Origin: Cytospora piceicola
Taxonomy: Eukaryota > Ascomycota > Sordariomycetes > Diaporthales > Cytosporaceae
Assembly: GCA_023375675.1 (NCBI GenBank)
Contig: JALQBC010000001.1
Span: 930,001-994,000, forward strand
Direction: 5' to 3'
Length of the DNA: 64,000 nucleotides
The notes below the pieces were generated by a model. It saw nothing but the letters and a program-made list of their open reading frames with translations. It did no database searches and was not told where the DNA came from. Every line of letters starts with the position of its first letter. The stretch's first letter is position 1. The translations under genes were made by a program, and so were the position numbers. Positions 9,662-33,358 of the stretch are shown here, one piece after another.

Positions 9662-9808
9662 GGTCTGGTGGTCTAGTGGTATGATTCGCGCTTAGGGACT
9701 ACCCTGAGTTATATGCGCGAGGTCCGTGAGTAACATCCTAAGTTCAAGTACAATTCCGAGCAACAATATCTAACAATATAACAGCGGGTTCAATCCCCGG
9801 CCAGACCC
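9662..9808 (+). tRNA. tRNA-Pro(AGG), copy 1, with two insertions
   Basis: Exons 9662-9697, 9714-9725 and 9785-9808 assemble a complete 72-nt tRNA. The acceptor stem pairs GGTCTGG with CCAGACC, and the discriminator is C. The D arm is GTCT-AGTGGTA-TGAT, the anticodon stem CGCGC/GCGCG, the loop TTAGGGT with anticodon AGG, and the T arm CCGGG-TTCAATC-CCCGG. Insertion 1 (9698-9713, 16 nt) sits after position 37, the normal site for tRNA splicing endonuclease. Insertion 2 (9726-9784, 59 nt) interrupts the T stem between its first and second base pairs. It begins GTGAGT and ends CTAACAATATAACAG, as a spliceosomal intron would. The A box and B box (GGGTTCAATCCC) are intact but lie far apart. Confidence 0.9.
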
Positions 9809-9820
9809 TTAACAACTTCC

Positions 9821-9826
9821 TTTTTT
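9821..9826 (+). terminator. RNA polymerase III terminator (T6) of tRNA copy 1
   Basis: A run of six T on the coding strand 13 nt after the discriminator base, as expected for Pol III termination. Confidence 0.7.
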
Positions 9827-9942: not shown

Positions 9943-10089
9943 GGTCTGGTGGTCTAGTGGTATGATTCGCGCTTAGGGTGTACTCTGAGTTCATTGCGCG
10001 AGGTCCGTAAGTAGGATTCTAAGTTCAAATGCAATTCCGAGCAACAATGTCTAACAATATAACAGCGGGTTCAATCCCCGGCCAGACCC
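9943..10089 (+). tRNA. tRNA-Pro(AGG), copy 2, with two insertions
   Basis: Exons 9943-9978, 9995-10006 and 10066-10089 are identical over all 72 nt to copy 1, 134 bp upstream. Both insertions are at identical sites with identical lengths (9979-9994, 16 nt; 10007-10065, 59 nt), but their sequences have drifted: I count seven substitutions in the 59-nt insertion. The donor is GTAAGT here against GTGAGT in copy 1, while CTAACAATATAACAG at the 3' end is unchanged. Drift in the inserts against perfectly conserved exons argues that both genes make functional tRNA and that the inserts are removed. Confidence 0.9.
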
Positions 10090-10113: not shown

Positions 10114-10119
10114 TTTTTT
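10114..10119 (+). terminator. RNA polymerase III terminator (T6) of tRNA copy 2
   Basis: Six T residues, 25 nt after the discriminator base of the second tRNA gene. Confidence 0.65.
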
Positions 10120-23716: not shown

Positions 23717-26700
23717 TTACACTACAGCAAACACCTCAATTTCTGCTCTGAGCGTCAGCAACCGAATGACACCACATCGCAATTGGCCCAGTGCACCACT
23801 TACATGGAGGCTTCCCAACCTATCATCTGCCTCGCCGTCGTGTTGCGAGAGTAACACACCTGCTAGCTGCTTTTTGCTAGCTTGAAGCTCCATCACCCGC
23901 TGTGAGGCGGTGTCAACGCTCAGATCATGGCGTATGGAAGTATTGGGCAACTCACCTCCTCAAACGAGTCTCGGACGTAGAATCGGACAGTGGTTACTTC
24001 TTGCGTCTGCCCTATGCGATGGATTCTTGCGAGTGCTTGCTCCTCAAGCGTCGGGTTCCTGGACAAGTCAATCACCTAGAATTGACTGGAACTAAAAAGA
24101 TCGCAACCTACCAGTGAGGCTCCAAGAGATACGCACGTGATGCTGCTGTGAGCGTGAGCCTGTTTGAAGAACACCAGTCAGCTCGAAGGAATGCGGGCTC
24201 CAGGGACTGGACGACCAAGGGGGAGAGACCCTACCCAACAGCACCACACGACAGCGTGAGAAGCATGACACGAACACCCGGATCTGTCTTGAAGCGGTCA
24301 ACGACGTGTTGCCGTTCTTTTTGCGGCACTTTACCGTCGAATCGAATGTTTTGTATCGAAGCTTTATTGAGCCCGGCTTCGACAAGGTCCAGTGTCAACC
24401 TCCAGGTCGAAAATACAACACTGGCATCTGTCAACACGCGATCTTTCTCTCCATGGGCTGCTCCATGGGCTGAGAGCCAATTACAGCCAAGAGTACTCAC
24501 CACTTGACTCCTTCCGGTTGGCTGCTGATATCTGTCACCAGAGCTTGGACCTTTGACGGTAGCACCAAGTCTCGTCTTGGTGCCATACCATCCAAGGAAG
24601 GCAGGTCTTCAAGAGCCCTATCACTGATTGATACACATGCTCCTGGGCAAGAAGGGCTGTGGCCGCAGTTCACGCGGCGACCATGTCGACGGATTTTGTT
24701 GACACACTCACCGCAGCAAAACCTCAAACAGCGGAAGAACTGCGGAAGCTTCTCCGTATCTGTGCCCTCGTCCAGTAGAGTCTCGGTGACAGTGAGACTA
24801 GATGCGCATTGCAAGCATATTATGGTGTCCATCTCCCGCTGCGCGTTGAACGCTTGTTGGGCAGTATCAGTCCATGCTGCCGTTGCGTTCCCCAAAGCCT
24901 TGGACTCGTTATGTCTCGACTGGTAGTGGAGACCCATATCACAAATGAGTCTCAGGGCGTCGATCTGTTGCAGGACGTTGACGTACGCGCTGCCTTTGGA
25001 GGCCTCTGAGCCGGATTGCAGAGCCTCGTCGATTCGGGTGATTGCTCGTTGCCGAACAGTTTCGTATGCCCGCCTTTCATTGGGAGTAAACTCAACTGCA
25101 TAAAGCTGATCTCGACGGGCGGGAAGAGATATGGTCTTTTTTGGCCGTCGAAGCACTAAGCAATTGGACAGGTACTTCAACCTGGTTACCGCCTTCTCGT
25201 CCTCTCCGGACTTCCACAGGGCCGAGATGTCGGCTTTGAATTGCTTGGGGTCATCATAAGGGTACGCACGAATAAATTTTAACAGCGTCGCAAGATCATC
25301 CAAACGATTCTGGTAGAGTAGGTTTCAGTTCACAGCCGGTCGCGGATCATTCAAGGAACTAACCTGGATAGGAGTGCCGGTCACAGCCCAACGAGAAGTG
25401 CACTCTAGGTCGCAAACGGCACGCGACATTCTCGAGTGTTCATTTCGGATGAAATGCGCTATCATAGTTAGCTTCGATGATCTATGGTTTTGCCTCAGGG
25501 TCTGTTCCGTCAATCTATACCTTCATCAAGGATGATCCGCCTCCAATGGACGGAGAACAAGATTGAGCTACTTGGACCTCTTGCCGTCTTCCAATCTGTG
25601 GAAACCGTGTGGAATGTCGTTAATACTACATTGAGTCCGTCCAAACCGCGGTAATCAGCCAGTTTGGCCTTGCCATAGTGACGTCGAAATTTCAAAGCGT
25701 TCCCTGATACGTGCCTGAAGCTCTCAGTCAGCGACCTGGAAGCTAAATGGATGTTTGTGGGCTTACTCTGATAATTGCTCTTCCCAAGTTCCGAGCACTG
25801 CTTGAAGGTCAGTTGAACTCCGTAATGTAAAAGACGCAAGAAGGGTATACGAAACAATGTCAGTCGATTGTAGGGCACTCACACGGTGGTGGGACAATGA
25901 TCAGTGTGGCATCGGTATAATATACATCCCCTTTACCTTCCTGATTTTGGACTGTTTCGTAGTTTACCCTGTCCAGGTCTGATGCCGCCAATGCGATCAT
26001 AGTCAATGTCTTTCCCAGACCCATTGGATCTGCAATTATGCCCCCCCGGAGCGGTGGTGGTTCTTCAGTCTCACACCTTCCAGATATCTTGTTGATGAAG
26101 CTGCCGGTACTGGAGTTTAGCCCAAGGTCCCTACTTGTTTTGTGAAGCGATCAAACCCACAGTTCCCCGTAGCCGTCTTTAGCCTCCCAGATATCTTGCG
26201 AATTTTCGTCGAAGGCCCAACCCTGTTCTCGACGAAACATGAAAGTCAGGGCTTGTCTTTGGTGTCTGTGATGTTGCGATTAGTGTAGGTCAGATAGCGA
26301 ATTCGGTGTATCTTTTTACCTTTTCAAAGTAGTGTGTATTGCTGTTGGCTGTGGTGCCTCTTCCAAGTCTGCGTGGCTGCTTAGAATATCGAGCAGATCA
26401 GGCTGGCCGACAAATTCCTCAAATCCAAAAAGCGTCGAGTTTTGCGCAATGAATTCTGAAATCAATACGCATGAGCTAAGATCGTTGGATGACAGCCTAT
26501 GTGGATTGCAGTATCGCACGTCTAGCTCTCCAACCCGAGTAGGATCTTGAAGGTAGAGCTCGTACTCCTGGAACCAAGTTCCGATCTCATCAAAAAGTTC
26601 CAATGGCCCGTATACCGTAATGCTCAGCGTGCAATGATGTTTCATTAACACCCGCCCTGCACGTGTGTTATTTGAGGCAGTCTCGCTGTCAACCGAGCAG

Positions 26701-28137: not shown

Positions 28138-31100
28138 ATGCCTTTGCCTAGAGCAATACCCCCTGCTGTACGGCAGACAATGAAGGAAGCGTTCGAGGAA
28201 CTCGAAAGAACGATCATCCCACAAGACCGCAAGGAATTTGCAACTTCTACCCTCCAGACGGTGCGGCAGGAGGCACTGGATATCGAGACGCGACTAGCCG
28301 CACGACAGTCGCTCCGCAACATGCGACGCTTGATGCCCTTATTTGCGGCGCTCGAACACTATGCAAAATCAGTTGACACCCTTTGCAATGGAACTCCCTT
28401 CATGCCATGGATTTGGGCTCCCATCACTCTCATACTACGAGTTGCATCCGAGTATGTGGAAGCCTTTGACCAGATAATCAAGGGTTATACGAGAATTGCG
28501 GAATCTCTGCAACATATTCAATTCCTGAGCGAAGCCTTTCCTGGCGATGACCAGTTCCATCAGGTACTGGCAACGTTCTATGCAGATATTCTCGAGTTCC
28601 ATAAACACGCATACAAGTTCGTGCGTCGTAGCGGCAAGTCCACCCTAATACTGATTTGGATCTCATGAACTCAAACATGATTTTGAGGCTAATGGCTTGC
28701 ATTGCCCCCAGGCTGGAAAATCTTGTTTCTCACCTCGTGGGGACGCTTCCAAAGACGATTCGATAACATCTTAGAAGATATGAGACGGCACGAAGCTCTA
28801 ATTGATCAAGGGGCCAGCTCTCGAAACATTGCTAGAGCGCAAATCATGCGTCAAGAACTTCGCAGTTGGAAAGAGGATAGCCTTGAAAAGATCAATCAAT
28901 TAGACAAGGAACAGTCTGCCAAGGAGTTTCAGGCCATCCTCTCTTGGCTTCGAGTGAATGAAAACGACCAGTTGGCGATTTTTGAATCGGTTTCAAGCCA
29001 AGGGAACAAGTATCAGGGAACTTGTTCATGGACACATCAGAATTCCAAGATCCGGTCGTGGTTGCAGCAGAAACCGGACACTCCTTTCCTTTGGCTGTCT
29101 GGCATAGCTGGCTCTGGTAAGAGTGTCATATCAACACAGCTCATCAACTTCATGCGAATCTCAGGAAAGAACGTCCTCAGCCACTTCTGCACATACAGCT
29201 CGGCTGCGTCCTCTGAATACGAGCAGATTCTGAAATCTCTACTGGAGCAGCTACTTCGTCAAGATGGACATCTAGCGGCCCACGTCTACAACGAATACGT
29301 CCTCAAGAAACAGTCGGCAACAATCTCAAGCCTGGAGAATCTTCTTCAAACCCTTTTAACAAGTTCATCGGATAATCTAAGCACAACCCATTACATTTGG
29401 ATCGTCGTGGATGGCGCAGATGAGCTCCGAGAAGAACCACCTAATTTGCAAGCTCGTTTGTTGGGGTTGTTGAAGCAAATAGTTTCAAAAACATCTGCTT
29501 CAGGAAATGTCGTATGCAAGATCCTGCTATCCAGCCGTTCAACTCCAACGATGTCCCAGGCTCTTCGTCGGAAACCAGGTGTTTCCCTCACAGAAGAGAA
29601 AGTCTGTATGTCACTCGCAATAGAGGAATATGCCTGCCAGCGATTGCGCTCATTGCACACGCGTCTCGAGCAATTAGGTCTCGGTTCAGAAGAGATTGAC
29701 GATATTGCCCGGCAGATCTCGGGAAAGGCCGATGGTATGTGTCACTACCAGCCTGTGAGCAACTTTAGTGGAAGAACATGAATTTTGTGCTCGGTATAAT
29801 TGCTAGATTACTCATGGCAAAGTGCTGATATTCATTAGGCATGTTCCTTTACGCCCGGCTGGTTTTGGATTTTATCAGCAATAATATCTTCATACGTGGC
29901 GAAGAACTGCGAGGTTCCATTGACCAGTTACCCAAGGAGCTTTCAGATTTGTGAGTCTGCCTGCACCAATCCTAAGGATGGAACTCCACACTAACCTTCC
30001 TGGCTCCAGCTACCGGAAGATTATGTCTCAGATTGTTGCACCCCTTGACCTGAACTCGGTAGATCATATCAAATGTATATTTGGCTGGATATCGTTTTCT
30101 AGACGCGCATTGAGGACTGCCGAGCTATTGTCAGCTGTAGCATTTTCGGACGGAGACCCTGATATCAGCCTCCCTGCTCCCAACTATATTCTTGACATTT
30201 GTGGCTCGTTGGTCGAACAACGCAGCGATGGAACAGTATCGTTCATTCACGTATCCGTCAAAGAGTAAGTGGTAGTACTGGCTTCTGCTAGTACGAGACC
30301 GATTTTGGAAAACAGCCATACTGATCTTTAGCCAGATACCTCCAGAGCCCCTTATCACTCTTTGGTATCAACGAGAAAGATGCGCTAGTTCAGCACTGTG
30401 TGGCCACGGTTACCTGTTTGCTGTCTGGAGTCAGGCTCTTTGATGAGGCTTCCGAGGACAGATATCGTTCAACTGTGAAAGGAACACATGCTCTTCAAGT
30501 GTACGCATCCGTGTACTGGGTTGATTATCTCTTGTGCATTTTCCAGTCCCCGGTTGATGTCCATGAAACCTCAAAGCTTCATACTCTCCTCGATCTTCTA
30601 TGCACGGAGCTGGATAGGTTCTGTACGGACCAAGATCAAACGGATGATTCAGAAGAATTGGCACCAGAGTCCCAGCTGGCTTGCCTAGAGCGTTACGAAA
30701 AGATACACAAAGTGGTGAAGCAGACGATACACGCTCGATCCCTTCGAAACCTTGAAGAACGACTACGGCTAGGAAATGGTGAGTACCCTGACAACTGAAC
30801 AGTACAGAAGTCTGATGATGGACACTGACACAAATATCGGAAGGACTACCTCGCACGAATTCAAAGGTCTCGAATGATTCAGTCTCAGCTGTACTAGCCC
30901 AATATCAGAAGATTCTCAAACATGTCATTAACGAGACAGAAATTCCAGGAATGACGGCACATGACCTTGAGAAATTCAAGAAAGATTATCAATCGTCAGT
31001 ATATACGTGTAGGCTCGGATCATGTGCCAGGGCCACAGTTGGATTCGAAACTGAAAGACAACGTGATGAGCACGAAATTGGTCATGTGCGCCAATTTCGT

Positions 31101-31476: not shown

Positions 31477-33358
31477 CTACTCGGTCTCAAAAACCTCCAT
31501 CCCAACTAAATCCGGAGCCCAACTTCCCTCATCCCCATACGCAGTGAAAACGACCTCATTCCCATCACCGGCCACAAACCCATCCACGTAGACATACAGC
31601 CGCCCAGTATCATACCAATCACCCCCAGAAATAGGGAACGCAATCCGGGTCCCATTACCAGCCGGCTCGTTTACGGCAATTGTCAAATTACGTGTGTTAT
31701 CGCCAGATCCCCACGATGTTGCCAGCGCAACATCATAGTTTATGAAGTCGACGCCCAGCAGCTTCGTCCCCGCGGAGCTGGCAGTCACGCCGGAGAAGGT
31801 CACGGCGGCCGCGGAGTCGCCTTCCCCGATGTTCCCAACCTTGCTACCGGCCGGGAGGCATGTCCCAGAGGCACACGATACCACGGTGGCGGCGCCGGAC
31901 AAAGTGGCGTCCGTACTGGCAGTGTAATATCCCACAGACTGCTGAGTACCCGCCGTGGCGTTGACGATATCGGACAGGATGATCAGACGGAGTTCGTGGC
32001 CGTTGAGGGTGGTCTCGTATGTGCTGTTGATTGTGCCGAGGTCCTGGGCTGCCCAGACATCGCGAGCCGTGGCGGAGGCAATGCCAAGGTCGGCGGGGAG
32101 ACTGACGGTTACGCTCTGACTGTCGTTGTACCAGTTCGCCAGGCCCAGCACTATTCGAGATCCGGAGAGCTCACCAGCCCACACGTCATATTGCTCAGTG
32201 GTGTATCGCCGGACAAGCTGGGCCTGCTTGCCGAGGGAGTCCTGATTCAAAGCTATGACTCCGCTGTTGTTGAGGAGCTCCAAAGACTCAGTTGGCGTGA
32301 TGGAGGTATCAATAGGGGCACCTATGATAAGAGGTGATTTGTTGATAGCCCACATCCCGAAGTGAAATCTCTCCTCCTCGAGTGACAGTGCTTTCAGACC
32401 AACAATTAGCATGTCCATGTCAGGATAGGCGCCGACTCCTGTATGTTTGAAGTATGGCACTACCTGATTTGTGATACGCCAGATGCTCCGCCATGCATTG
32501 TATATGTCATTGCTTATCCTCCATGAGTTTCCGATCTCAGAGGCCCTATCAGGACAGAGTATTCAGCACCTCAACATTGTATGATTATGTGAGACAGCAC
32601 TTACCAGACTCCGATGTCAGTTCCCTGGCCCCATTGACATATCTGATAAATTATGTCACGAGAAGTGCCGTCGAGCGCACTGGCCATGACCTGAAACCTC
32701 GTAGGAGATTGGGCAACAACGTTCGAGTAGTCCGCAGCTTCACTAGTACTATTTGCATAGCAGTTGTCGTACCTATGGGAATTAGCTATAGACCGCGCAT
32801 GAACACGTCCGGATATTGATTCCGTGAACGAACTCACTTGAGAGAATCCGCACCCCATCCCGCAAATGCGTCAGCGTCCGTTGTTTCATAACCTGAAGAG
32901 GGCGCAATGTCAGTATCACCGCCTGCTCAAGACGACCAAAGCCAAGAGGCGTCCAGAGCCCAGCTGAGAGTCTCACCCAAAGAAGCAGGCTGGTCCGTGG
33001 ACCCGCACTGGAAATGTCCTGCGCCGGAGTACACGCCGAACTTCAGACCCAGGCCATGGATATATTTACCAAGAGCCGAGGCTCCGGATGGAAATGTAGT
33101 TGAGTTCCATACTAGCTGTCCCGATGAGTCCCGATAGTTCGAGTTCCACCCGCAGTCCGTGGTGACGTAGTTGTACCCAGCTCCGTGAAAGCCTAGACTG
33201 ACAAGCCCGGCCGCATTTTCCTGTATAATGGTCTCGTTCGGGTAACAATTGTAATAATTGTAGCTGTTCCAACCCATCACAGGCGTTGACGTTCGCACAG
33301 TGGTTGCGGAGACAAGACCGCTCGTCAAGGACAAGGCGAGGAGAGTACCCCACAACAT
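31477..33358 (-). CDS. Secreted GH27 alpha-galactosidase
   Basis: Four exons: 33358-32977, 32892-32838, 32772-32605 and 32545-31477, giving 557 residues. The signal peptide (MLWGTLLALSLTSGLVSA) is followed by TPVMGWNSYNYYNCYPNE, the GH27 start. The nucleophile is Asp148 in LKYDNC, rebuilt across an intron. The acid/base Asp lies in AYPDMDML (about 244-246). The catalytic barrel and beta domain are followed from about residue 390 by a beta-rich module with GVDFINYDVALATSWGSGDN and a Tyr/Asp-rich end, resembling a CBM35-type sugar-binding domain. Several N-glycosylation sequons are present. It releases terminal alpha-1,6-galactose from raffinose-type sugars or galactomannan outside the cell. 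It converges with the STAND gene, whose stop lies only about 60 bp away. Confidence 0.93.

Follow-up and report, generated by a model that had tools for sequence, protein, structure and literature searches.

How can a tRNA be made from a nuclear gene whose T stem is interrupted? The question is raised by two tRNA-Pro(AGG) genes on the forward strand of the window, the 64,000-nt stretch of DNA analysed here. Copy 1 (9662..9808, + strand) is 147 nt long, and joining its exons (9662-9697, 9714-9725 and 9785-9808) gives a 72-nt tRNA recognized by ARAGORN. The exons are separated by a canonical 16-nt anticodon-loop intron (37/38; 9698..9713) and by a 59-nt insert in the T arm (9726..9784), between T-stem positions 49 and 50. 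Copy 2 (9943..10089, + strand, 147 nt) has the same arrangement and the same exons, with a 16-nt anticodon-loop intron at 9979..9994 and a 59-nt T-arm insert at 10007..10065 that differs from that of copy 1 at 7 of 59 positions. In both genes the 16-nt insert stands directly after position 37, and in copy 1 it contains an ACCCT that, by reading, is able to pair with AGGG of the anticodon loop. Dropping the 16-nt and 59-nt inserts from either copy yields one and the same 72-nt tRNA-Pro(AGG), which bears out the proposal of the initial annotation that two inserts must be removed to reach the mature tRNA. ARAGORN called a tRNA from the window genes when the T-arm insert was taken out and never when it was present; the raw unspliced window gave no tRNA by ARAGORN or Rfam (around the genes, E up to 5).

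In cloverleaf numbering AGGTC occupies positions 44-48 and is followed by C49 | C50 G51 G52 G53, the bar marking the insert. A one-base slide disrupts the T stem, so the borders of the copy 1 insert are unique, as had been claimed. At these exact borders the insert reads GTGAGT ... CTAACAATATAACAG. Its donor GTGAGT (9726..9731), a hexamer also found in host mRNA introns, and its acceptor CAG (9782..9784) were identified by direct reading, and the branch motif CTAAC lies at 9770..9774, with the presumed branch A 11 nt from the intron end. Copy 2 reads GTAAGT...CTAAC...ACAG. Since donor, branch and acceptor signals coincide with the borders fixed by the tRNA, the mRNA splicing machinery likely removes the insert. 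Within the window, 59-nt stretches with a GTRNGT donor, a CTRAY near the end and a terminal YAG occur 4 times among 127,884 positions on both strands; these include both T-arm inserts and thus only two other stretches, a chance rate of 2/127,882 with both inserts set aside.

The pattern is larger than first noted, with four further genes in the genome, two AGG and two CGG. The host genome searched comprises 43.6 Mb in 99 contigs. An A-box pattern allowing up to two mismatches matched 14 places across it, corresponding to three tRNA-Ala genes, one place without assignment and ten tRNA-Pro genes, the last number counting genes near the A-box pattern, which more divergent proline genes would escape. 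Six of these ten carry the T-arm insert: four of the five AGG genes (the two in the window, one on contig C7 and one on C36) and two of the three CGG genes (one on C90 and one on C1 near 75,170-75,316, minus strand). ARAGORN identified the joined CGG exons as tRNA-Pro(cgg) and made no such call with the T insert present. The insert is lacking from both TGG genes, one CGG gene and one AGG gene. In the last of these, on C20, the T stem is unbroken at the 49/50 point and the insert is absent exactly; its exon sequence differs from that of the insert-bearing AGG genes at 4 of 72 positions. A separate tRNA family scan scored 63 of 1659 candidates, and the insert-free AGG gene was not among them. 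The third tRNA-Pro(CGG) gene (C1:2122560, plus strand) has a clearly different body, with a 28-nt anticodon intron and no T-arm insert.

All six T introns are 59 nt long and share the layout GTRAGT or GTACGT donor (6/6), TCTAAC and YAG, the acceptor being CAG in five and TAG in one. The branch A of CTAAC is 11 nt from the intron end in every case, within the 6-36 nt given for fungal branch motifs in the available text of PMC5832005. Two features count against an mRNA-type intron: CTAAC is preceded by a T instead of the purine given for the fungal consensus in the same text (RCTRAY), and on its exon side the donor has CC rather than AG. AGG and CGG T introns align with one gap each, yet keep the same length. 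Across the six, 11 of 14 splice-signal columns are invariant vs. 17 of 46 other columns (one-sided Fisher p = 0.007), and a mid-intron GTTC is the sole invariant run of at least three columns outside the splice signals. The exons behave differently from the introns. The four AGG copies, on three contigs, are invariant across all 72 exon positions, whereas their T introns vary in 10 of 59 columns (p = 2e-4 by Fisher's test). Between the CGG copies the 72 exon positions again show no difference, against 14 differences in 58 positions of the T intron (p = 5e-6); for the anticodon intron the count is 5 of 35 (p = 0.003). Comparison of AGG with CGG exons gives 8 differences in 72 positions, among them two acceptor pairs that, by reading, are compensated from AGG to CGG (T3-A70 to C3-G70 and G7-C66 to A7-T66). 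When the AGG T intron was used as a query, only the four AGG genes were returned at E up to 5, so this search gave no near-identical copies in unrelated genes of the kind expected of introner-like elements; distant copies could have been missed, as the query missed both CGG introns.

As a yardstick for these signals we used 12 host mRNA introns, located by spliced alignment in two protein genes of the window, one encoding an SNF2 protein (orthologs P0121 and P0123) and one an alpha-galactosidase (P0006, P0007 and P0015), an exon of which is 85-88% identical to four Cytospora proteins, which points to a Cytospora-like fungus within the Diaporthales as the likely host. Ten of the 12 were cut alike by every ortholog tried for the gene in question; P0121 kept the two final SNF2 introns (75 and 53 nt) apart, whereas P0123 fused them into one. 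These introns measure 52-85 nt (median 61, n = 12), a range that includes the 59 nt of the T introns. Their donors include GTGAGT and GTAAGT, along with weaker ones such as GTAAAA and GTATAG. Seven of the 12 have a CTRAY branch motif 9-18 nt upstream of the intron end, all 12 have one of the looser form YTRAH, and one has the exact CTAAC. Two introns taken for comparison are a 59-nt alpha-galactosidase intron (GTAAGT...TAG; 32546..32604, minus strand), supported by spliced alignment of three orthologs, and a 62-nt SNF2 intron with the branch GCTAAC (25459..25520, minus strand). The T introns fall well within the host mRNA intron set. The identification of the insert as a fungal mRNA-type intron from its donor, branch and acceptor, made at first for a single gene, now extends to all six genes and is matched by similar host introns. 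Elsewhere in the window, 28693-29778 (+ strand) holds an NLR-like reading frame of the NACHT/NPHP3_N type.

The most probable interpretation, to which we assign a probability of about 85%, is that the spliceosome removes the T-arm insert (49/50), while cutting of the anticodon-loop intron is predicted to fall to the tRNA splicing endonuclease. The sequence evidence all favours spliceosomal introns in these nuclear tRNA genes: the insert recurs in six genes of two isoacceptors, its signals are conserved amid drift, host introns are similar, one paralog lacks the insert, and a U6 gene of the same genome has two mRNA-type introns of its own (described below). The spliceosomal reading of the initial annotation is in this way supported at the level of sequence, from which splicing itself is inferred. 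In the proposed scheme, Pol III would transcribe each gene from its intact A and B boxes through to the T run. The nuclear spliceosome would then excise the T-arm intron and rebuild the T stem, probably as the first of the two removals because the T arm is required for end processing and export. Endonuclease and ligase would act afterwards on the anticodon intron, in an order and in compartments that we infer; in yeast the endonuclease/ligase step on anticodon introns is cytoplasmic. A single gain in one tRNA-Pro gene, followed by duplications that also carried the insert to a copy with a CGG anticodon, is the likely origin.

T-arm introns of another kind are already known. In the red alga Cyanidioschyzon merolae, nuclear tRNA introns lie away from 37/38, T arm included, according to the available text of PMC9602550, PMC3978253 and PMC4090602; removal of these ectopic introns is attributed there to bulge-helix-bulge (BHB) motifs and the tRNA endonuclease (PMC3978253, PMC4090602), and the anticodon intron is described as removed last (PMC9602550, PMC3978253). 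The expectation in the initial annotation that nuclear tRNA introns lie essentially at 37/38 therefore needs correction, in view of this alga and of a nucleomorph. The Pro genes resemble those of C. merolae in combining a T-arm intron with one at 37/38, and the host genome has two loci with a tRNA-endonuclease domain, so the same enzyme might be thought to cut the T-arm insert as well. We regard this as very improbable. The insert lies at 49/50 rather than at 37/38, and, unlike the algal BHB introns as the available text presents them, it reads GT...CTAAC...YAG, a pattern present in 6/6 genes that cutting by the endonuclease leaves unexplained. With cutting at the standard position, 0-1 of the 4 central-helix pairs can form in each of the six T inserts, compared with 2-3 of 4 in seven anticodon introns. 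A 4-bp central helix does form at one non-standard offset in two of the six inserts, with 1/2 outer pairs in A1 and 0/2 in A3. When all 16 offsets are allowed, four pairs are reached by 2/6 T inserts, by 2/7 anticodon introns (presumed real substrates) and by 2190 of 5000 shuffled inserts. The BHB test is weak, since anticodon introns reach four pairs in only two of seven cases and shuffles often do, and relaxed or helix-less BHB forms are known (available text of PMC3978253). Judged from these pairings, the test no more than leans against the endonuclease route; the splice signals weigh more heavily against it.

Two further possibilities dispense with removal altogether. The insert-bearing genes could be dead copies that are never freed of the insert and yield no tRNA, an idea favoured by the presence of insert-free AGG, CGG and TGG genes, which means that the insert genes need not be essential, and by the invisibility of both unspliced window genes to standard finders. 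What makes it quite improbable is that 72/72 exon positions have been kept in the four AGG copies, and likewise in both CGG copies, while the introns drifted; whole-gene conversion would have made the introns uniform too, and the acceptor-stem changes between AGG and CGG are compensated. Alternatively, the insert could be retained as part of a giant variable loop of ~64 nt. A 4-bp T stem can still form beside it, and folding the four AGG inserts alone gives a weak common hairpin of 4-5 bp, with whole-insert energies of -1.8 to -4.7 kcal/mol. This hairpin is not common to the two CGG inserts, however, the pair 49-65, kept in every copy, would be displaced, and the insert-free paralog has the ordinary form; we consider a retained loop extremely improbable.

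With spliceosomal removal as the preferred reading, we turn to how the genes may be transcribed. A and B boxes are intact in all six insert genes. In copy 1 the A box TGGTCTAGTGGT (9669..9680, by direct reading) and the B box GGTTCAATCCC (9787..9797), intact downstream of the T intron, are separated by a 107-nt gap, and a T6 run at 9821..9826 is the likely Pol III terminator; in copy 2 the likely terminator is a T6 run at 10114..10119. Across the insert genes, the first downstream T run lies 12-25 nt away and is 6-7 nt long in five genes and 5 nt in CGG copy 2. The latter gene (C1 near 75,170-75,316, minus strand) also has a T5 run at the start of its anticodon intron, which might act as an early Pol III stop. 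The true B box lies 107 nt (AGG) or 126 nt (CGG) past the A box. Both gaps exceed the maximum of 86 among 51 distinct ARAGORN tRNAs in the fetched loci, mitochondrial ones included, as well as the yeast range of 31-93 given in the available text of PMC4937561, and this counts against the preferred reading.

Each T intron also contains a B-box-like motif, AGTTCAAGTAC in copy 1 (9741..9751, + strand) and AGTTCAAATGC in copy 2 (10022..10032, + strand), in which GTTC is invariant in 6/6 introns. Its GTTCRA lies 61 or 81 nt from the A box, inside the yeast range (PMC4937561, available text). The motif matches 8-9 of 11 positions of the B-box consensus. Shuffled introns scored equally in 111 (A1), 103 (G1) and 477 (G2) of 3000 cases, one of the 12 host introns also reaches 9/11, and a GTTCAA occurs in the anticodon intron of the AGG gene that lacks the insert. 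Since comparable scores are not rare in shuffles, the motif alone is weak; support comes from GTTC being the sole invariant non-splice run of at least three columns in the six introns. Taken together, motif and spacing suggest that the T intron may carry a working B box. A tentative and rather doubtful extension is that most proline tRNA is made by two machines in turn, the spliceosome for the T arm and the endonuclease for the anticodon loop, with the T intron doubling as a promoter whose B-box-like motif gives TFIIIC a normal A-box spacing (61 or 81 nt), which the true B box, pushed downstream, no longer offers. Such a promoter role would resemble that of U6 genes with an intronic B box.

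U6 provides the nearest parallel in other respects. Canzler is said to have described mRNA-type introns in the U6 genes of several fungi in 2016, and Frendewey reportedly noted in 1990 that the U6 intron of S. pombe holds a B-box match. The host genome has two U6 matches, an ordinary intron-less gene on C63 and a gene on C68 whose match spans 169 nt and includes an insert. By hand reading and alignment to the C63 copy, the latter (C68:682397 to about 682170, minus strand) reads as a second U6 snRNA gene interrupted by two introns of mRNA type, 53 and 60 nt long. Intron 1 (53 nt), in the 5' part, reads GTAAGT ... TACTAAT ... AAG; intron 2 (60 nt) reads GTAGGT ... TACTGAC ... CACAG and is placed at ACAGAGAAGAT|TAGC. 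This genome therefore has such introns in a second kind of RNA for which Pol III is the usual polymerase. Four U2 matches were also found in the genome. The precedent that the initial annotation had drawn from U6 is sound, both through this gene and through S. pombe, whose U6 is a Pol III transcript with an mRNA-type intron removed by the spliceosome (available text of PMC8917221). Like fungal U6, the Pro genes place a GT...AG intron in a Pol III-type RNA, and U6 intron 2 shares a B-box-like motif with the T introns, its score being equalled in 496 of 3000 shuffles. Unlike U6, the host here is a tRNA gene with its own downstream B box and a second intron for another machine. We also considered whether the T introns are homologous to U6 intron 2 beyond the B-box-like motif; interior alignment scores gave this no support, being matched by 35 (A1), 234 (A2), 585 (A3), 368 (A4), 219 (G1) and 224 (G2) of 2000 shuffles.

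Other known systems share single features with the Pro genes. Nucleomorph tRNA introns of Guillardia theta occupy non-canonical positions, many without a defined BHB (PMC3978253), and some are extremely short (PMC4090602), as far as the available text of these sources goes; the T introns are likewise at a non-canonical position and differ in being 59 nt long with spliceosomal signals. Fungal U3 snoRNA genes have spliceosomal introns whose presence differs between paralogs (PMC5832005, available text). This is again an mRNA-type intron in a small structural RNA with variable presence among paralogs, although U3 is no tRNA. Among the literature matches listed, in which subscription journals are thinly covered, titles and abstract openings gave no description of a nuclear tRNA gene with a spliceosomal intron; the available text of one paper places archaeal-type introns in nuclear tRNA genes and names no spliceosomal ones. 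The literature covered also took in the available parts of PMC4033280, PMC8450103, PMC13149111 and PMC9518982.

If the spliceosomal reading is right, it would represent a new way of maturing a tRNA, through the mRNA splicing machinery. A nuclear tRNA could then depend on the spliceosome, and tRNA supply would be tied to mRNA splicing. The genes would allow two questions to be tested in a natural setting: by what route an uncapped Pol III transcript reaches the spliceosome and, because bearing and empty paralogs coexist in one genome, how introns make their way into non-coding RNA genes. It would also follow that tRNA finders such as ARAGORN and Rfam overlook T-intron genes.

Pattern scans of the host genome for further T-arm introns gave 16 matches with CTAAC as the branch motif, six of them the Pro genes (18 in a reversed-pattern control), 46 with CTGAY (control 17) and 8 with CTAAT (control 7). 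Four of the 46 CTGAY matches were run through ARAGORN, giving one ordinary tRNA-Ala and three without a tRNA; the remaining CTGAY and all CTAAT matches were judged on the matched letters alone. Outside fungi, the scans returned two stretches in prokaryote genomes and five in viral contigs, none of which is, by its letters, a tRNA-Pro exon behind an intron. Two host loci have tRNA-like features. At C8:708980-709009 (plus strand), A-box-like and B-box-like stretches lie ~130 nt apart, with CTAAC and AG preceding the B box; ARAGORN found no tRNA at this locus and its T stem looks weak. The other, at C9:333199-333217 (minus strand) and not called a tRNA by ARAGORN, has a tRNA-like A box, after which come GTTCGATT and a T5 run.
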